50,364 nt of DNA from a bacterium ADurb.Bin212 (GTDB lineage Bacteria; Patescibacteriota; UBA1384; XYA2-FULL-43-10): contig MWCM01000010.1 in assembly GCA_002070055.1 (NCBI GenBank), positions 1-50,364 on the forward strand, given 5' to 3'. The position numbers and the translations under genes are program-made. The notes below the pieces were generated by a model. It was not told where the DNA came from. It searched no databases and was given only the letters and a program-made list of their open reading frames with translations. Every line of letters starts with the position of its first letter. Position 1 is the stretch's first letter. Shown in pieces: positions 4,013 to 50,134 of the stretch.

Positions 4013-4561
4013 ATGAAAATACTTTATGTCACCAAAAATGATAATAAGCTTGCTCATGCACAGCAGTTTACTGCGGGCAGCGGCATTGAGATTAAGTCTA
4101 GCAAAATAGAAGTTCCGGAAATCCAGGCGGCTAGTGTCCATGAGGTAATAAAACACAAGGCTCTGAGCGCTTGGAACTTGTTGCAAAAACCGCTAATTGT
4201 CTCCGACTCCGGCTGGGAGATCCCGGCACTTGGCGGATTCCCCGGGCCATATATGCATCATATAAACAGCTGGTTTACGCCAGAAGATTTTTTGGCATTA
4301 ATGCAAAAAAAACAAGATAAAAAAATAGTACTAAATCACCTTATTGCCGTGGTTTTAAATGGTGAGCCCAAGATATTTACAGAAAAAACTTATGGTAAAT
4401 TTATCTCCCAACCACGAGGTCGGGGAACGTCTTTAGACCGGGTTGTGGTGATGGGTAAAAGCCACGGGACAATTGCCGAAAATAACAATGCCGGTATTGT
4501 CTCAGCCGATGGCCAAGCCATTTGGAGTGAGATAGTGGAGTATATACTAACCGGGAAATAA
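4013..4561 (+). CDS. HAM1/RdgB-like pyrophosphatase, paralog 2
   Basis: 182 residues, colinear with the product of 2952-3500 (about 121 of 182 positions identical in my hand alignment, no gaps). It has the same TKN loop, PEIQA, VSDSGWEIPALGGFPGPY and VSADGQAIW motifs, and again Trp where the family usually has Leu. The paralogs differ mainly in residues 21-34 and 101-104, which may mark different partners or substrates. Both keep the catalytic Asp-Ser-Gly core, so both are expected to be active. Confidence 0.85.
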   Translation: MKILYVTKNDNKLAHAQQFTAGSGIEIKSSKIEVPEIQAASVHEVIKHKALSAWNLLQKPLIVSDSGWEIPALGGFPGPYMHHINSWFTPEDFLALMQKKQDKKIVLNHLIAVVLNGEPKIFTEKTYGKFISQPRGRGTSLDRVVVMGKSHGTIAENNNAGIVSADGQAIWSEIVEYILTGK

Positions 4562-4688
4562 GCGTTTTTTTATCAATCCTAAGGCTTGAAAACGTTAAAA
4601 TTTATGAGTAGATTTAGGTTGATATAAATATATTTTATTAGTGCATTTAATTAATTGTCTACATAGGCTTAATTCTTTATTCACCTCA

Positions 4689-4732
4689 TTCTGCGGGATT
4701 CCGCCAGAGGCGAAGGCTTAATTCTGCCTCCG
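4689..4732. repeat. Family A repeat, degenerate copy
   Basis: The stretch around ATTCTGCGGGATTCCGCCAG and GCGAAGGCTTAATTC repeats the start and end of the family A element at 1287 and 9932 but lacks the middle hairpin. It looks like a decayed or internally deleted copy. Confidence 0.5.
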
Positions 4733-38513: not shown

Positions 38514-39509
38514 ATGAAAAAAGTAGTTTCAAGGTTAAAAGGATTGGCACAAACTCTTAAGAAACCCAATTTAATTAAAAAGTCTAATGCGAAAAACAGC
38601 ACCAAAAAGACATCGAAACAAACGTCAAGAAGGGGTCTTTCTTTTTTGGCTATAGTAATAATCTTAATTTTTTTGGTTGAGTTTTCTTTTGCTCTCAGCA
38701 TTTACGCATTTAAATCGACAGACAATATTACAAAATCGGTTGCCAAGGCAATTCCTTATCCGGCCGTCTTCGCCGCCTCAGGTGTTTCAACCGTTAATGA
38801 TTTCTGGGCAGAGAAGGAGTATATTGAACACTTCTACAATTCAACCAAACAAACCGATTACAGTGAAGAAGATCTAGTAAAGCAGATATTAAAGCAGGAA
38901 GCCGAAAATGTGATTATCAAAAAAGAGGCCATAACATATAAAAAATCAGTTTCAAAAGAGGAAATTGAAGAATCTATGGCCCAGATTTATGAAGGAAATG
39001 GTGGAGAGGAAGAAGTTGAAAAGGCGCTTCAAGATTTGTATGGCTTAAGCGTTGATGAGTTTAAAAATCTTGTAGAGATCCAGTTGCTTCGCGATAAAAT
39101 CAACAAGGAGGTTATTGCGAGAGTTGTAGCTAGACATATATTAATCCGAGTCGAAGAAGGTGCAAGCGAAGAAGTCGTAAATGAAGCCAAAACAAGAATA
39201 ACTGGTTACCTGACAGAGATAAAAAACGGATTAAGCTTTGATGAGGCTGCGAATAAATACTCAGAGGATGTTGGGAGTAATCAAAATGGGGGGTTATTGG
39301 AATCTTTTGCCCGTGGCGATATGGTTGAGGAGTTTGAAAAAGTTGCCTTTTCCTCTGCTATCGGTGATATTTCTGAACCATTTCAAACCTCTTTTGGTTG
39401 GCATATTCTTAAAGTAGAAGAGAAGACCGGATATGTTGAAGAAAGTTTTGATAATTGGATAGATGAATTAATGGCAAAGAATATGGTAATTTATCTATTC
39501 AAAGGATAA
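38514..39509 (+). CDS. Membrane-anchored PpiC-type peptidyl-prolyl isomerase/foldase
   Basis: 331 residues. A basic start and one membrane helix (about 44-63) are followed by a SurA_N-like helical part (EEDLVKQILKQEAENVIIKK) and a parvulin domain: ARHILIRVEEGAS, GLSFDEAANKYSEDVGS, NGGLLESFARGDMVEEFE and PFQTSFGWHILKVEE. It is the PrsA/SurA type and should help fold exported proteins, such as the giant surface proteins here. Confidence 0.9.
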   Translation: MKKVVSRLKGLAQTLKKPNLIKKSNAKNSTKKTSKQTSRRGLSFLAIVIILIFLVEFSFALSIYAFKSTDNITKSVAKAIPYPAVFAASGVSTVNDFWAEKEYIEHFYNSTKQTDYSEEDLVKQILKQEAENVIIKKEAITYKKSVSKEEIEESMAQIYEGNGGEEEVEKALQDLYGLSVDEFKNLVEIQLLRDKINKEVIARVVARHILIRVEEGASEEVVNEAKTRITGYLTEIKNGLSFDEAANKYSEDVGSNQNGGLLESFARGDMVEEFEKVAFSSAIGDISEPFQTSFGWHILKVEEKTGYVEESFDNWIDELMAKNMVIYLFKG

Positions 39510-39510
39510 G

Positions 39511-39651
39511 TTGAAAAAGTCTTCACCAAGAATTAAATATTTGTTTTCAATAATTGCTCTTTTAATGATCGCTATTGCTACCTATAGTTTTGTGGTTCTA
39601 ATGAACAATGCTTCACAAACTCCATCAAGACAAAATACTGAAATAAGATAA
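39511..39651 (+). CDS. 46-residue single-helix membrane protein
   Basis: TTG start at 39511 with AAAGGA four bases upstream, overlapping the end of the PpiC region by none. The product has a basic start (KKSSPRIKY), one membrane helix (LFSIIALLMIAIATYSFVVL) and a polar tail. Composition matches the host. Its stop lies 1 base before the -35 box of attenuator unit 1. Confidence 0.55.
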   Translation: MKKSSPRIKYLFSIIALLMIAIATYSFVVLMNNASQTPSRQNTEIR

Positions 39652-39652
39652 T

Positions 39653-39680
39653 TTGACAAATGCAATTTGTTTGCTATATT
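39653..39680 (+). promoter_or_regulatory. Promoter of attenuator unit 1
   Basis: TTGACA (39653-39658) and TATATT (39675-39680), 16 bases apart. The leader ATG is only 8 bases after the -10 box, so translation should begin at or next to the transcript's 5' end. Confidence 0.8.
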
Positions 39681-39688
39681 AATATCGT

Positions 39689-39769
39689 ATGATAAAAGAT
39701 TCATTTGCATCTAGCAGAAACTTGCTAGCCCTACTACTAGGACTATCTTTTTCTTTGCGGCGCAAATGA
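39689..39769 (+). CDS. Unit 1 leader peptide, Leu-rich, 26 residues
   Basis: A 26-codon ORF ending TGA. The middle reads NLLALLLGLSFSL and has seven Leu, five of them as CTA. This resembles leu-operon leader peptides. It probably has no protein function; ribosome movement through it would set the fold of the RNA. The bases of its late codons, TTGCGGCG (39755-39762), are complementary to the terminator's CGCCGCAA (39807-39814), so a ribosome at the stop codon would mask the antiterminator arm, and one stalled at the Leu codons would free it. The ORF overlaps its own CTAGCA/TGCTAG hairpin at 39711-39728. Confidence 0.7.
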   Translation: MIKDSFASSRNLLALLLGLSFSLRRK

Positions 39770-39802
39770 TCTTTTAAATTCATAAGTTCTTTCTATAAAA
39801 GG

Positions 39803-39834
39803 TAACCGCCGCAAGGCGGTTATTTTGTTTTTTT
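39803..39834 (+). terminator. Unit 1 intrinsic terminator (attenuator)
   Basis: TAACCGCC (39803-39810), loop GCAA, GGCGGTTA (39815-39822), then a T-rich tract. Its 5' arm and loop (39807-39814) can instead pair with 39755-39762 in the leader ORF. The two pairings exclude each other. Confidence 0.85.
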
Positions 39835-39918
39835 AACAACCCACCACCTGGGTTGTTGGGTGTCTGTGCCTTTTGATGCAATCATCAAGGAGCACAAAGC
39901 ACCCAAGGAGGAACAGCG

Positions 39919-40212
39919 ATGAAAGCCATTACATTGCCAGGGTTCAACTCTACAGGACGGAAGGAGGTTAATGTTGGGTTATTGTGGGATCACCGGAGCA
40001 ATCGTTGGCTTGCGGTCATCAACGATCCCACGTGGAGATGCGAGGTTGCTAGTGACTCCGAGCAGGAAAGGGCTGTCAGAAAGGCAACCAATCGCCTATT
40101 CGCTGTTGTCGACGGGTATGACCCGGAGTCGTATCCACACCATGAGGTTTGGGTCGCTTACTGCGCGGCCCGGGAGATGCCGGCATCTCCCATCTACTCC
40201 ATCCCGGTCTAA
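39919..40212 (+). CDS. GC-rich orphan gene 1 (97 residues)
   Basis: 97 residues from ATG 39919, behind a perfect AAGGAGG. The product begins MKAITLPGFNSTGRKEVNVG and holds several Trp and Arg; no signal, helix or known motif is seen. Codons end mainly in G or C, unlike host genes. The 5' untranslated part from the terminator holds two hairpins (AACAACCC/GGGTTGTT at 39835-39858, and TTGATG/CATCAA near 39872-39887). A strong hairpin follows the stop. Expression depends on read-through of the unit 1 attenuator. Function unknown. Confidence 0.7.
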   Translation: MKAITLPGFNSTGRKEVNVGLLWDHRSNRWLAVINDPTWRCEVASDSEQERAVRKATNRLFAVVDGYDPESYPHHEVWVAYCAAREMPASPIYSIPV

Positions 40213-40224
40213 TCGGGGAGCCGT

Positions 40225-40254
40225 GGTCCCGGGCGGCGTATGCCGCTCGGGACC
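40225..40254 (+). terminator. GC-rich 3' hairpin of unit 1
   Basis: GGTCCCG (40225-40231) pairs with CGGGACC (40248-40254), and GCGGC with GCCGC inside it. No T-run follows; the next promoter's -35 box starts 8 bases later. It may end or protect the transcript and marks the right edge of the GC-rich block. Confidence 0.6.
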
Positions 40255-40261
40255 GCCAGAC

Positions 40262-40290
40262 TTTACACAAATAATGGTCTTTGATATAAA
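40262..40290 (+). promoter_or_regulatory. Promoter of attenuator unit 2
   Basis: TTTACA (40262-40267) and TATAAA (40285-40290), 17 bases apart; the leader ATG is at 40298, 7 bases after the -10 box. Confidence 0.8.
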
Positions 40291-40297
40291 ATAATCA

Positions 40298-40372
40298 ATG
40301 AATTTAAACCTAACCTCAATTATAACTATTATTATTTCAATTATTATCCCGCTTTTGGCGGTTGCTTTTTAG
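40298..40372 (+). CDS. Unit 2 leader peptide, Ile-rich, 24 residues
   Basis: A 24-codon ORF ending TAG. The core TSIITIIISIIIPLLAV has eight Ile, plus Thr, Leu and Val, like ilv or thr leader peptides. The last codons include GGCGG (40357-40361), then TT, then GCTTTTT (40364-40370). These can pair with CCGCC (40397-40401) and AAAAAGC (40389-40395) just before and in the terminator, giving a 12-pair antiterminator with a small internal loop. A ribosome that reaches the stop would cover this arm. Confidence 0.72.
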   Translation: MNLNLTSIITIIISIIIPLLAVAF

Positions 40373-40396
40373 ATCACGAACTATAACAAAAAAGCG

Positions 40397-40420
40397 CCGC
40401 CTCAACTAGGCGGTTTTTTT
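40397..40420 (+). terminator. Unit 2 intrinsic terminator (attenuator)
   Basis: CCGCCT (40397-40402), loop CAACT, AGGCGG (40408-40413), then T7 and GTTTTT. Its 5' arm is shared with the antiterminator pairing to the leader's last codons. Confidence 0.88.
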
Positions 40421-40478
40421 GTTTTTGGCTGGGTTGACGTCGTCCTTCAATCCGGCACAAGAACAAACGGAGGCAACA

Positions 40479-40694
40479 ATGACAACGGAAGAGATCATGG
40501 GCACTGCCAGGGCCATTGCTTTGGCGTTTTGCGTCGCCTACCAGGATCACCGGTTCAGCGCCAAGGAATTTGGCGATGAGGTGTATGTGGTCTTTATGGG
40601 CATCTTGAAGGTTGTGCGGATTGACGAGGAGGTAGCCCGAAAATGGGTTCTCGATGATGACATTCACCTTGGGCAGTGTGGTGCGCCGACGTAG
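40479..40694 (+). CDS. GC-rich orphan gene 2 (71 residues)
   Basis: 71 residues from ATG 40479, preceded by CGGAGG; the frame is open from 40419 but that part holds the terminator tail and ribosome site. The product starts MTTEEIMGTARAIALAFCVA and is likely helical; KEFGDEVYVVFMGILKVVRI is a mixed strand-helix stretch. No known family. The stop codon TAG lies in the loop of a perfect ten-pair hairpin (40680-40705), so the gene end and 3' hairpin are fused. GC-rich codon use, unlike neighbours. Confidence 0.65.
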   Translation: MTTEEIMGTARAIALAFCVAYQDHRFSAKEFGDEVYVVFMGILKVVRIDEEVARKWVLDDDIHLGQCGAPT

Positions 40695-40705
40695 CTCGGC
40701 GCACC
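40680..40705 (+). terminator. GC-rich 3' hairpin of unit 2, stop codon in its loop
   Basis: GGTGCGCCGA (40680-40689) pairs perfectly with TCGGCGCACC (40696-40705); the six-base loop CGTAGC includes the TAG stop. A T5 run follows after five bases, so it may act as a terminator. Confidence 0.7.
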
Positions 40706-40728
40706 ACAACATTTTTCAATCAACTTTA

Positions 40729-40757
40729 TTGACACCTATGCAAAGTGTTGGTAGTGT
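40729..40757 (+). promoter_or_regulatory. Promoter of attenuator unit 3
   Basis: TTGACA (40729-40734) and TAGTGT (40752-40757), 17 bases apart; the leader ATG is at 40765, 7 bases after the -10 box, the same geometry as units 1 and 2. Confidence 0.75.
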
Positions 40758-40764
40758 ATAAACA

Positions 40765-40830
40765 ATGAATTTAATTATGAGAAATTATTTTTGGTTTTAC
40801 TTTTTTGCCGGACTTGGTCGGGTGATTTAG
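40765..40830 (+). CDS. Unit 3 leader peptide, aromatic-rich, 21 residues
   Basis: A 21-codon ORF ending TAG. The core NYFWFYFFAGLG has four Phe, two Tyr and one Trp in a row of eight, like pheA/pheST leader peptides. The last codons include GGTCGG (40816-40821) and TGATT (40823-40827), which can pair with CCGGCC (40863-40868) and AGTCA (40856-40860), with two G-U pairs. A small AATGC/GCATT hairpin (40832-40852) lies between the arms. This mirrors unit 2 with different sequence. Confidence 0.72.
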   Translation: MNLIMRNYFWFYFFAGLGRVI

Positions 40831-40861
40831 TAATGCCATAAATATTTGCATTGTGAGTCAT

Positions 40862-40885
40862 ACCGGCCAGCAGGCCGGTTTTTTT
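40862..40885 (+). terminator. Unit 3 intrinsic terminator (attenuator)
   Basis: ACCGGCC (40862-40868), loop AGCA, GGCCGGT (40873-40879), then TTTTTT and more T-rich sequence. Just after it, CTGCA/TGCAG and a T-run/A-run pair (near 40880-40889 and 40919-40929) could make a second structure before the gene. Confidence 0.88.
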
Positions 40886-40949
40886 GTTTGTTTGCCTGCA
40901 GTATTTGCAGACAAGGCATACAAAAAAACAACCCTCAGGGAGAACAAGC

Positions 40950-42284
40950 ATGCTCAACTTGACGCAGCCGATGGCGGGTAAAGCAGTTGAAGTAAGCCAG
41001 ATGATCCAGGAGATGGGCCTTGTATACGGCCAAGGGAAGACCTTCCTGGCTTCCTCGCAGGCGGCAATCCTAGATCATGGAGAGGTTGCTGAGCTGGGGC
41101 GTGTCTCTGGCGCGGTCCTGCGTTGCACGCCTCGGCTCTATGCTGAGACGGACGAGAGAAGGATGTTCGATGTTGGGGTGTCATCTTTGGCAAAAGAGCT
41201 TAATGCTCTGCGCCAGGAGGCTCCACGATTCTATCGGGTCGATGCCGTAGTCACGTCAGGGGGGTTGCGGGTTGCCGAGATTGAAAGCATCCCAGCTGGT
41301 CTCGGGTACATGTCGTCTGTCTATGAGGCTGCAGCGAGTGCTGGCATAATCGGCGCTGACCATGTGCCCGACTATGCCGGCTTGTTCGTAAGTGCTGTCG
41401 GTATGGGGCACCCTGTTGTTGGTATCGCGGTCTGCGCTGATCGCTGTCACTACCGCAGAGACAGCGAGGTGTTCGCCCAAAACTGTCTGGCCAAAGGGCA
41501 CGAGATGGTTATGGTGGACCCACATGGCGTGGTGATGAATGGCCGATCCGATCTGCCGCTGGTAGACGGCAAGCCGATGGCGGTGCATGTGCGTGCAGGG
41601 GCGTATCGCTACAGTGATGTTCCTGCAGCCGATGAAGTTGGGCTGATTGAATGCTGGAGGTCCGGAGCCAACATTCATCCGCCGCTTCAGACAATCTTCT
41701 GGAGTAAGGCTGAAATGGCCTCTCTCTGGAAACCGGAGTTGCAGGAGTGGTGGAGGGGCTTGATAGGAGGAGATCTTGATGTTGCCCACCGGATCTTCCC
41801 CCAGACAGCCTACCTGGATGGTCGAGTTGAACCAGAACACATTCCCGACCTTGGGACGTGGGAAAGGGTCGGAAACTTCGATCGCAGGGGGTTTAAGAAC
41901 TGGGTCATTAAGGGGAGCACTGGCATCTCCGGTGGCCGGGCCATGGATTTCGGTAGTCATGACATTGTTATCGGGGCTGCCGGCAACATGGACACGGCCG
42001 GCTGGCGGGATGCTGTGCAGTCATCGCTGAACATGCTGGCTGCTGGTAGTGGACTTCGTATCATCCAAGGCTTTTCCAACCCGATCAAGATCCAGATGCA
42101 CACCATCGCCAACAAGCTGCTCTCAACGGAGCAGACCATTGGCCAGCTGAGGCCCTTGGCGCGGATCTACTACGCCATCATTGATGGCGAGTCGAGATTC
42201 ATGGGTGGCAGTCTCAACTGTCGCAACTCGCTTGTTGTTCACGGTGCCAGCGACGCGGTGCTGGCACCAATCATACTGGGCTAA
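40950..42284 (+). CDS. GC-rich orphan gene 3, possible ATP-grasp ligase (444 residues)
   Basis: 444 residues from ATG 40950, behind AGGGAG; the frame opens at 40884 inside the terminator region. No membrane segment. Parts fit an ATP-grasp fold by eye: GLRVAEIESIPAGLGY (near 110), NWVIKGSTGISGGRAMD with a candidate ATP Lys (K321) and Gly-rich loop, LRIIQGFSNP (near 370, like the Q-x-F strand), and ARIYYAIIDGESRFMGG (near 404). The end holds SLVVHGASDAV. ATP-grasp enzymes join a carboxylate to an amine via acyl-phosphate. GC is 58% in 41341-41400. A 3' hairpin follows. The fold is inference only. Confidence 0.6.
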   Translation: MLNLTQPMAGKAVEVSQMIQEMGLVYGQGKTFLASSQAAILDHGEVAELGRVSGAVLRCTPRLYAETDERRMFDVGVSSLAKELNALRQEAPRFYRVDAVVTSGGLRVAEIESIPAGLGYMSSVYEAAASAGIIGADHVPDYAGLFVSAVGMGHPVVGIAVCADRCHYRRDSEVFAQNCLAKGHEMVMVDPHGVVMNGRSDLPLVDGKPMAVHVRAGAYRYSDVPAADEVGLIECWRSGANIHPPLQTIFWSKAEMASLWKPELQEWWRGLIGGDLDVAHRIFPQTAYLDGRVEPEHIPDLGTWERVGNFDRRGFKNWVIKGSTGISGGRAMDFGSHDIVIGAAGNMDTAGWRDAVQSSLNMLAAGSGLRIIQGFSNPIKIQMHTIANKLLSTEQTIGQLRPLARIYYAIIDGESRFMGGSLNCRNSLVVHGASDAVLAPIILG

Positions 42285-42296
42285 AAAAGGAGGAGT

Positions 42297-42336
42297 CCAG
42301 ACAAGAAACTCTGGAGCCGTCGTGACCGGCGGCTCC
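42297..42336 (+). terminator. Double 3' hairpin of unit 3
   Basis: CCAGA/TCTGG (42297-42314) and GGAGCCG/CGGCTCC (42313-42336) are adjacent and share two bases, so only one may form at once. No T-run follows. GC-rich sequence ends exactly here. Confidence 0.5.
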
Positions 42337-42368
42337 ACAAATAATATTATTAAGTTATAATATATTGT

Positions 42369-43463
42369 ATGAATAATGAGATTATAAAAATTAGCCAGCA
42401 GCTGATAAAATTTAAAACGGAAACCGGGAATTTTAAAGAAATTAGCAGCTGCTTTGATTTTATTAGCTGTCTACTTGGTGATACAGGTAATTATAAATCA
42501 AAAACAATCAAAAAAAACAGCCATCAAAGCATGGTTATCTCAAAAAACAAAGAACCGGATATTTTTTTAGTTGGACATATTGATGTGGTGCCAGCTCTAG
42601 ACAAAATGTATGAGCCGAAGGTGAAGCGTGGCAGGATTTATGGCAGGGGAGCTTGCGACATGAAATGCTCAATTGCTGCAATGTTACTTGCATTTAGAGA
42701 AATAATCAAAAATAATACAGCTGCATCAATTGGTATAATATTAACTTCCGACGAGGAGGTGGGTGGTTTTTCTGGGGTTAGTCATATTTTATCTTTAGGA
42801 TACAAATCAAAAATAGCGATAATTCCAGACGGTGGCCCTAACTTCAGTATTGTTGAAAAAGAAAAGGGTGTTCTTCACTTGATGCTTTACGCCAAAGGAA
42901 AATCTGCTCACGCTTCGAGGAATTGGTTAGGAGAAAATGCCATTGATATATTATGTGACTCTCTACTTTCAATTAGGCATCTCTTTCCGCGAGATAATCA
43001 TAATAATTGGGAGAGAAGCATAAATATTGGCAGAATACAGGGTGGAGATGCGGTGAATACAGTCCCCGCCAGGGCTTTTGCAAACATAGACATCAGACTC
43101 ACTGAGAGCGACAATGCAGATATGATAATAAATATGATAAGAGCGGCTGCGGGTGATAAAGTTGTCGTTAAAGTTGATATTAATGAGCCAACAACAAATA
43201 TATCCAGAGAACATCCCGAGGTCATCAGACTACAAAATATTTATCAAAGAAAAACAGGGAAATTTATGGGCTTTGAACGCTCTCACGGTACAACTGACTC
43301 GCGCCATTTTTACAAGCGAGGAATTAATAGTTTAATTTTTATGCCTGATGCAGGTGGCCATCATAGCAACAACGAATGGGTGGATATTGAGTCCTTGAAT
43401 CTGTATTACGAGATTTTACTTGATTATATTTACGATTATCATTATCATTTCAATAAAGAGTAA
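42369..43463 (+). CDS. M20-family metallopeptidase (DapE/ArgE/CPG2-like)
   Basis: 364 residues. Metal and catalytic motifs: VGHIDVVPA (His and Asp), YGRGACDMKCS (bridging Asp), TSDEEVGG (catalytic Glu and ligand), PDGGP and the late GGHHSNNEWVDIE. The dimerisation domain starts near KGKSAHASRNW. The family removes acyl or amino-acid groups from small peptides or N-acyl amino acids; substrate not clear. TATAAT at 42356-42361 lies 7 bases before the ATG, so the mRNA looks leaderless. Host-like composition (38% in 42901-42960). Directly follows unit 3. Confidence 0.9.
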   Translation: MNNEIIKISQQLIKFKTETGNFKEISSCFDFISCLLGDTGNYKSKTIKKNSHQSMVISKNKEPDIFLVGHIDVVPALDKMYEPKVKRGRIYGRGACDMKCSIAAMLLAFREIIKNNTAASIGIILTSDEEVGGFSGVSHILSLGYKSKIAIIPDGGPNFSIVEKEKGVLHLMLYAKGKSAHASRNWLGENAIDILCDSLLSIRHLFPRDNHNNWERSINIGRIQGGDAVNTVPARAFANIDIRLTESDNADMIINMIRAAAGDKVVVKVDINEPTTNISREHPEVIRLQNIYQRKTGKFMGFERSHGTTDSRHFYKRGINSLIFMPDAGGHHSNNEWVDIESLNLYYEILLDYIYDYHYHFNKE

Positions 43464-48934: not shown

Positions 48935-50134
48935 TTAGCGGCTTGGCGCCCGGGCGGGGCGCGAAAGCCGAGGGGTGGCCCATAGGGCCAAACGAGGCTG
49001 CCATATGGGCCAGCGCTCGTAGAGCCACGTGAGCCAACAAGCTCCAATCAGCGCCGCGAGGGCGCTGTACCCGGCACTTGGGAGTGCCAAGTAGTGCGGG
49101 AACCTGTTATAAGAGTAGATGGGTGCGACTGGCAGGTAAAACACCAGTACCCATGCCCATAGCACGAGGGCCAGTTGCCAACGGTGACGGAACACCACTG
49201 CGCTGGCGGTAACAGCTACTAGCTTGGTGATGTCTCCCCAGAAGCCGGGATTCAGCAGGATCCATGCGTCAGATCCTGCATAGGCTTTGGCGGTGACAAT
49301 CAACCACTCGATCGGCGCCAAATACATGCGCGCCGTTAGTCTCCAAAACGCTTCGGTGCCGACCATGGCACCTGCACCTGGGTCCATGAAGCCCGGGATC
49401 ATTACTGCGCGCAGTGCTATGTAAGCCACTGCGATGCCCCAAATTCCAACCACGCCGGTAACGGCCTTTCTCCAGCTCCAGCCCTGCTGGCCGGAGAGGA
49501 GAATGACCGCCAAGGAGATGAACGCCGGAGCAACCAGCGTGTTCTCCTTGGACATGAGACCAATCATCATGGCGGCTGCTGAGCCCGCCAGCCACCACCG
49601 GCTCCTCTTGCCCTCAGCACGGAGGTGCAAAAAGAAGCAGGCGACGGTGGCGCAGATCGCCGGCGCCGAGATCAAGTCGAAGCGGGCGGCGAACCAGCCG
49701 GCTGTGAAGCCATTGGCTGGTGCCGCCGCGTACAGGATGGCGCCGATACCACCGGCCAGAGGGGACGCCAGCAGAACCGCCAGCATCCATCCGAAAGCCA
49801 GGGCACCGACGATGTGCCACGCTAGATCAGTGCATCTGAAACGATACGCCGTTTCAGATGCTGTCAACTCGGCCATTGAACCATCGCGGGGCCGGCTGGA
49901 AATCTGCCGGTCTAGCCAAAGAGAGGCGAGCCCCAGTGGCCTGTAGTACATCCACCCAGGCCGTACAAACTTCTCGGCCATCTCTCTGGGCGTTTCGATT
50001 TCGAGGAGCATGTGCAAAATGCTCCTCTCGTCGAACTTGTCCGGCGCCCTATGCAACCGATCCCCACCGTACTTTACGACGGAGATTGAGACAACTACGG
50101 CAACAACCACGACGACCAAGAAAATACGCTTCAT
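48935..50134 (-). CDS. GC-rich polytopic GT-C-like membrane glycosyltransferase
   Basis: 399 residues from ATG 50134, behind AGGAGG; an ATG at 50182 is in frame but lacks a ribosome site. About nine to ten membrane helices. WMYYRPLGLASLWLD (near 61), FAARFDLIS (near 150) and GLMSKENTLVAPAF (near 190) resemble the YYRP...RxDl...KE pattern of TMTC/PMT-like GT-C enzymes that use lipid-linked sugars. GC is 70% in 49681-49740. It has a sigma70-type promoter, a long 5' hairpin and a terminator, so it is a complete single-gene unit. Clearly of foreign composition. Confidence 0.72.
   Translation of the reverse strand: MKRIFLVVVVVAVVVSISVVKYGGDRLHRAPDKFDERSILHMLLEIETPREMAEKFVRPGWMYYRPLGLASLWLDRQISSRPRDGSMAELTASETAYRFRCTDLAWHIVGALAFGWMLAVLLASPLAGGIGAILYAAAPANGFTAGWFAARFDLISAPAICATVACFFLHLRAEGKRSRWWLAGSAAAMMIGLMSKENTLVAPAFISLAVILLSGQQGWSWRKAVTGVVGIWGIAVAYIALRAVMIPGFMDPGAGAMVGTEAFWRLTARMYLAPIEWLIVTAKAYAGSDAWILLNPGFWGDITKLVAVTASAVVFRHRWQLALVLWAWVLVFYLPVAPIYSYNRFPHYLALPSAGYSALAALIGACWLTWLYERWPIWQPRLALWATPRLSRPARAPSR

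Follow-up and report, generated by a model that had tools for sequence, protein, structure and literature searches.

Three tandem candidate amino-acid attenuators preceding GC-rich orphan genes in a patescibacterial genome

Transcription attenuation of the trp type is known from genes that synthesize, charge or take up amino acids, and a locus with its architecture in a cell apparently unable to make the amino acids concerned raises the question of what such a switch might serve. The locus considered here lies in a 50,364-nucleotide window (the whole stretch of DNA analyzed; contig C10, GenBank MWCM01000010.1) of the 1.22-Mb, 39%-GC genome of bacterium ADurb.Bin212 (Patescibacteriota), of which approximately 1.15-1.16 Mb was read and scanned; the relatives of this genome are small genomes from a single phylum, in keeping with Patescibacteria/CPR. 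Three tandem units on the forward strand (39653-40254, 40262-40708 and 40729-42337) each carry, in order, a promoter, a leaderless leader open reading frame (ORF) of 21-26 codons, an intrinsic terminator with a U-tract, a GC-rich orphan gene (A, B and C, respectively) and a 3' hairpin. An earlier, sequence-only reading of this DNA had proposed three amino-acid attenuators gating orphan genes of foreign origin. Judged from the sequence and from modeled folding, each unit probably combines a ribosome-mediated, trp-type transcription attenuator with a single downstream gene, a reading that is well supported as an architecture, though not yet as a function.

Three units built to one plan

All of the parts named in the sequence-only reading, including its single plan for the three units, were found in the DNA. 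The distance from the -10 box to the leader ATG is 8, 7 and 7 bases in units 1, 2 and 3, respectively, in agreement with the 7-8 bases originally given; with a start 6-8 bases past the -10, translation of the leader would begin at a leaderless RNA end. Genes A, B and C each have a strong Shine-Dalgarno (SD) site of their own. The leaders are AT-rich and host-like, whereas the 5' untranslated region (UTR) and the gene are GC-rich, with the rise in GC beginning 3' of the terminator's U-tract. In all three units, base pairing is possible between the tail of the leader (segment 2) and the terminator's 5' arm (segment 3).

Unit 1 begins with a promoter at 39653-39680 (TTGACA, a 16-nt spacer, TATATT and a TG ahead of the -10; 11 of 12 consensus matches), followed by a Leu-rich leader ORF at 39689-39769 (MIKDSFASSRNLLALLLGLSFSLRRK, then a stop codon) with seven Leu residues, five of them encoded by CTA. 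Its antiterminator (39754-39814) joins segment 2, TTTGCGGCG (39754-39762, within the leader), to segment 3, CGCCGCAA (39807-39814), and its terminator (39799-39835) consists of a 12-bp stem and a U-tract; a folding energy of -44.5 kcal/mol (z -5.4) is predicted for the leader RNA as a whole. Gene A (39905-40212) comprises the SD sequence AAGGAGG and a 97-aa orphan at 39919-40212, with a GC content of 0.55 overall and 0.62 at third codon positions (GC3), and a GC-rich stem without a U-tract closes the unit at 40225-40254.

Unit 2 has its promoter at 40262-40290 (TTTACA, a 17-nt spacer, TATAAA and a TG ahead of the -10; 11 points) and a leader ORF at 40298-40372 (MNLNLTSIITIIISIIIPLLAVAF, then a stop codon) containing eight Ile residues. 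The antiterminator (40357-40401) pairs GGCGGTTGCTTTTT (40357-40370, up to the stop codon) with AAAAAAGCGCCGCC (40388-40401), and the terminator (40396-40424) is built from GCCGCC and GGCGGT arms with a T-run. Gene B (40469-40694; GC 0.54, GC3 0.67) consists of the SD sequence GGAGG and a 71-aa orphan at 40479-40694, and a 13-bp stem with a short U-run follows at 40677-40708.

In unit 3, a promoter at 40729-40757 (TTGACA, a 17-nt spacer, TAGTGT and a TG) is followed by a leader ORF at 40765-40830 (MNLIMRNYFWFYFFAGLGRVI, then a stop codon) with the aromatic run YFWFYFF. The antiterminator (40816-40868) pairs GGTCGGGTGATT (40816-40827) with GAGTCATACCGGCC (40855-40868), and the terminator (40862-40887; z -4.1) has ACCGGCC and GGCCGGT arms and a T-run. 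Gene C (40950-42284; GC 0.57, GC3 0.64) encodes a 444-aa orphan, for which an AlphaFold model made without an alignment reached a mean predicted local distance difference test (pLDDT) score of only 31. The unit ends in a hairpin at 42312-42337 (TGGAGCCG and CGGCTCCA arms, without a U-tract). In a tighter delimitation, the terminators of units 1, 2 and 3 occupy 39799-39826, 40396-40414 and 40862-40879, respectively.

Some features assigned to the units at the outset need qualification. All three promoters are present, but the -10 of unit 3 is weak and is compensated only by its TTGACA and upstream TG. The GC-rich 3' hairpins are all present, yet only that of unit 2 has any U-tract, and a short one. 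Finally, when each leader is compared with shuffled versions of its own nucleotides, the enrichment is significant for Leu in unit 1 (p=0.016) and Ile in unit 2 (p=0.002), while the aromatic enrichment reaches only p=0.07.

The folding switch and its controls

The switch was modeled by folding only the RNA 3' of a ribosome that was moved along the leader codon by codon. The 2:3 and 3:4 pairings exclude one another, in support of the attenuator architecture proposed at the outset, and in all three units a ribosome that has arrived at the leader stop leaves the terminator free to form. In unit 2, the antiterminator is predicted with the ribosome on the Ile codons and is gone beyond codon 13; the terminator probability is approximately 0 through codon 13, which lies inside the Ile run, and 0.9-1.0 thereafter. 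In unit 3, a ribosome at codon 2 leaves a terminator probability of 0.8, which falls to 0.0 along the aromatic run and rises to 1.0 at the stop. For the Leu leader, antitermination is predicted only in the transcript that precedes the completed terminator; specifically, before segment 4 is made, segment 3 is sequestered to approximately 80% until the ribosome clears the Leu codons. Switching was predicted in six of seven natural units, compared with six of 42 leader/terminator swaps, and in nine of 420 trials with shuffled leaders.

Four attenuators of E. coli (thrL, trpL, leuL and pheL; ilvL was not scorable) were put through the same folding test and gave the same segment-3 profile as the units. 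Only pheL switches at equilibrium, whereas thrL, trpL and leuL keep the terminator, as does unit 1; since three of four genuine attenuators fail it, equilibrium folding alone is no fair test. The features of trp-type attenuation that could be examined, namely the order of promoter, leader and terminator, the codon run and the mutually exclusive structures, are all found here. A search of 39500-42500 with the Rfam models for Leu, Phe, Thr, Trp and His leaders, T-boxes and riboswitches gave no match above threshold, the best being Thr_leader at 24 bits against a gathering score of 55.

Several observations weigh against the attenuator reading. In unit 1, the terminator is preferred at equilibrium for every ribosome position, the -10 of unit 3 is poor, and the aromatic bias of its leader falls short of significance, although the run itself is present. 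Two of the similar leaders described below, at C8:46548 and L129, lack a significant amino-acid bias, and the filter that found such candidates had thresholds chosen post hoc, with the units already known. The three loci have no orthologues with which to compare them for covariation. Moreover, unlike the classic cases, no downstream gene can be recognized as one that acts in the metabolism of the sensed amino acid; specifically, Pfam and NCBIfam identified no gene for making, charging or taking up that amino acid among A, B and C, a target that is customary although the mechanism does not demand it.

Recurrence of the plan and the GC-rich gene class

The plan is not confined to this locus. A genome-wide filter (promoter score of at least 10, 3-14 bases from -10 to start, leader length of 10-40 codons, U-rich terminator) returned five candidates in 1.15 Mb, compared with one match in total among 12 dinucleotide-shuffled genomes (0.08 each), a figure that measures rarity rather than a blind rate of discovery because knowledge of the units preceded the choice of thresholds. 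All five show antiterminator/terminator exclusivity by folding and are followed by GC-rich DNA (0.51-0.57). The two beyond the tandem array are at C8:46548 on the reverse strand, where the leader MKRFESFVVSVILLFPPCG precedes a 115-aa gene, and at C11:125, where the leader MIRFFKKSILEADVS precedes a 27-codon GC-rich frame. No native AT-rich gene in the scanned sequence is preceded by an attenuator passing the filter. The same plan occurs at three places in a genome of the same order and another family (G002): at L114:1170 on the reverse strand, with an aromatic leader, MKMIATKTWFFFYFRSDHQAGIL, and a 105-aa gene that adjoins another GC-richer gene; at L129:184, preceding an 81-aa gene; and at L130:4017 on the reverse strand, preceding a gene that by eye resembles a GNAT acetyltransferase. 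GC3 of these genes is 0.60, 0.74 and 0.59, respectively, against 0.47 +/- 0.07 for that genome. An apparent transposase gene end lies directly upstream of two of these units (L129:1-150 and L130:4150-4278). Other look-alikes were set aside: a Leu-rich one in G001 (L097:238) has no clear gene after it, and switch-like matches at L116:838, L123:3424, L140:3067, C25:1195 and elsewhere form no convincing promoter-leader-gene unit or adjoin tRNA genes.

The genes under the switches are indeed orphans, as the sequence-only reading had held. Neither Pfam nor NCBIfam gives a match above cut-off for A, B or C. Genes A and B, the C8 gene and the 105-aa and 81-aa genes of G002 have no homologue in 11 genomes of the order; for gene C, a search of 380 genomes of the phylum, of genome, viral, plasmid and phage collections and of the PDB gave no homologue either. 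Since the plan is found in another family and the genes are not common to the two, it is the plan that recurs in the order and not the genes.

The additional claim that these genes are imported and foreign in composition fared less well. They are GC-rich, and belong among approximately 36 GC-rich genes in some 45 islands of this genome, with GC3 mostly of 0.6-0.8 against 0.38 +/- 0.07 and a consistent preference for codons ending in C or G; such islands are numerous in G001 and G004, too. Genes A, B and C have no orthologues for a same-locus test of composition, whereas other members of the class share theirs with relatives: high GC extends to the PlsY, radical-SAM and HAD genes of other families. 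For example, the radical-SAM gene at C1:15495-16634 on the reverse strand (GC3 0.76) has an orthologue in G006 that is 57% identical, has a GC3 of 0.70 and occupies the same locus, beside the same regulator gene (73%) and close to gltX (59%); its promoter and 5' UTR are conserved as well. It lies near native genes of similar divergence, and a scan of genome collections, which sees close relatives only, found no donor for its protein. Likewise, PlsY genes are GC-rich (GC3 0.57-0.67) in six genomes of the taxonomic class, G000, G001, G009, G023, G045 and G051, with clearly AT-richer flanks in most cases, and not GC-rich in G008, G034 and G040. Given that radical-SAM and PlsY genes are GC-rich across families, the label "foreign" does not follow from high GC; judging from these comparisons, high GC is maintained or repeatedly kept, and is a lasting property of the gene class rather than proof of recent import.

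Other features of the class may be noted. Many of its units consist of a promoter and a 3' hairpin with no leader, and such single-gene units with a strong SD, including one at 48935-50134 on the reverse strand of the window, often encode orphans with signal peptides. A paralogous family of GC-rich secreted proteins spans two genera (L090:2502-3038 and 4126-4692 in G001; C1:40930-41433 on the reverse strand in G000), the G000 copy having an internal stop. Upstream of C5:11989, the SD region of a long 5' UTR is enclosed by a stem (CCTTTGAGCCTA...TAGGCTCAAAGGAG), and this GC-rich gene may thus be preceded by a further RNA switch. Repeated ends of approximately 75 bp (TTTACCACACTAAGTGG...GAGGAGCC), probably of insertion sequences, occur at contig breaks (C9:50, C10:50315 on the reverse strand, C11:50, C5:50, C14:50 and C18:50, and L113, L133 and L139 of G002), and, of the six in this genome, three are followed after nine bases by the -35 of a GC-rich unit. 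Two candidate motifs were rejected: CACAAATAAT, which at GC/AT borders resembled a cassette border motif, is not enriched at other islands, and TTTACCACACTAAGTGGTGAGGAGCC, considered as an operator upstream of several GC-rich units, is found at contig ends and is most likely an insertion-sequence end. Integron cassettes were also considered for these single genes with 3' hairpins; by eye, the hairpins have no common sequence, though neither attC sites nor an integrase were formally searched for.

A possible signal, its rivals and known relatives

If the units work as their architecture suggests, transcription would start at or within 1-2 bases of the leader ATG, and the leader would be translated without a Shine-Dalgarno site. 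With Leu, Ile or Phe/Tyr/Trp plentiful, the ribosome would reach the leader stop and cover segment 2, the 3:4 terminator would form and transcription would stop. When the charged tRNA is short, the ribosome would stall on the control codons, segments 2 and 3 would pair and the terminator would be blocked, so that the GC-rich gene would be transcribed and then translated from its own strong SD. In line with the earlier supposition that cells of the Candidate Phyla Radiation usually cannot make amino acids, a search of the 1.15 Mb with 18 E. coli proteins that act in the synthesis of Leu, Ile, Val, Trp, Phe and Tyr gave no homologue at E<=1e-3, while the same search found relatives of the positive controls yifB and ppiC. 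In such a cell, the switch would report a failure of scavenging or uptake, instead of regulating synthesis, and turn on single orphan genes from the GC-rich class. More tentatively, and with the odds somewhat against it, the taxonomic class of these small-genome bacteria may keep a separate, GC-rich set of single-gene units, each equipped with a strong promoter, SD site and hairpin, that is stable across families, part of which would be a starvation regulon for scavenged amino acids that switches on lineage-specific genes, perhaps for host-cell contact or exploitation.

The same folding switch would serve leaders that sense slowed translation in general, caused by ribosome-targeting antibiotics or global stress as with erm, msrD and topAI-yjhQ, the amino-acid runs being incidental. 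Such sensing is possible, most of all for leaders with no clear codon run, and the leaders at C8:46548, L129 and L130 have no significant run of a single amino acid, just as the downstream genes are not recognizable as amino-acid metabolism. Nevertheless, the antitermination window falls on the Ile or aromatic run in units 2 and 3 and at L114, the Leu codons of unit 1 are mostly CTA, which makes up 14% of native Leu codons, and Pfam reveals no ribosome-protection or efflux gene downstream; for the units as a whole, this explanation is rather unlikely.

Simple insulation of single-gene units, with the short ORFs as chance frames in AT-rich promoter DNA, would suit the many GC-rich units of this genome that have no leader, but a terminator placed 3' of the unit's own promoter would silence the gene. 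The match between leader and terminator is, furthermore, specific (six of seven natural units against six of 42 swaps), shuffled genomes yield 0.08 matches each and the plan recurs in another family, all of which make insulation very improbable. Still harder to credit is the suggestion that the leader region itself yields a functional product, either a hydrophobic small peptide or the short RNA left by termination, with read-through secondary. The leaders are hydrophobic, and trans-acting leader peptides such as peTrpL are known (PMC7298713); however, the peptide sequences differ between units while the RNA switch is common to them, and a functional peptide would be expected to be conserved.

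Should the attenuator reading be correct, attenuation would act here as a sensor of host or environmental amino-acid supply in a cell seemingly lacking the corresponding pathways, and the leader codons, by stating the conditions expected to switch on genes of uncharacterized function, would provide a handle on them. Apart from the switch, a lasting class of GC-rich genes in AT-richer genomes advises caution in taking high GC as a sign of recent import.

Within a limited set of literature, no report of such attenuators in Patescibacteria was found. Elsewhere, classical attenuators precede trp, trpS, leuS and ilvB in Actinobacteria (PMC1262725), where the mechanism is the same, outside the Proteobacteria, and the targets are the matching amino-acid gene or tRNA synthetase. 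Non-biosynthetic targets also have precedent, in that ribosome stalling on the leader ORFs of msrD (PMC10314930) and topAI-yjhQ (PMC12121999) opens the downstream gene; these leaders sense drugs or general translation stress, whereas the codon runs described here point to single amino acids. The closest likeness is to leuL, ilvL, pheL, trpL and thrL of E. coli, which have the same control-codon leader, a segment 2 at the leader end, a segment 3 used by both antiterminator and terminator, and a U-tract. The present units differ from these in that the leader ORF is leaderless, three different sensors stand in a row, the targets are orphans and the host shows no homologue of the matching pathways. 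Taken as a whole, the best reading of the sequence and its predicted folds is that these units work like trp-type attenuators whose targets are of a new kind.

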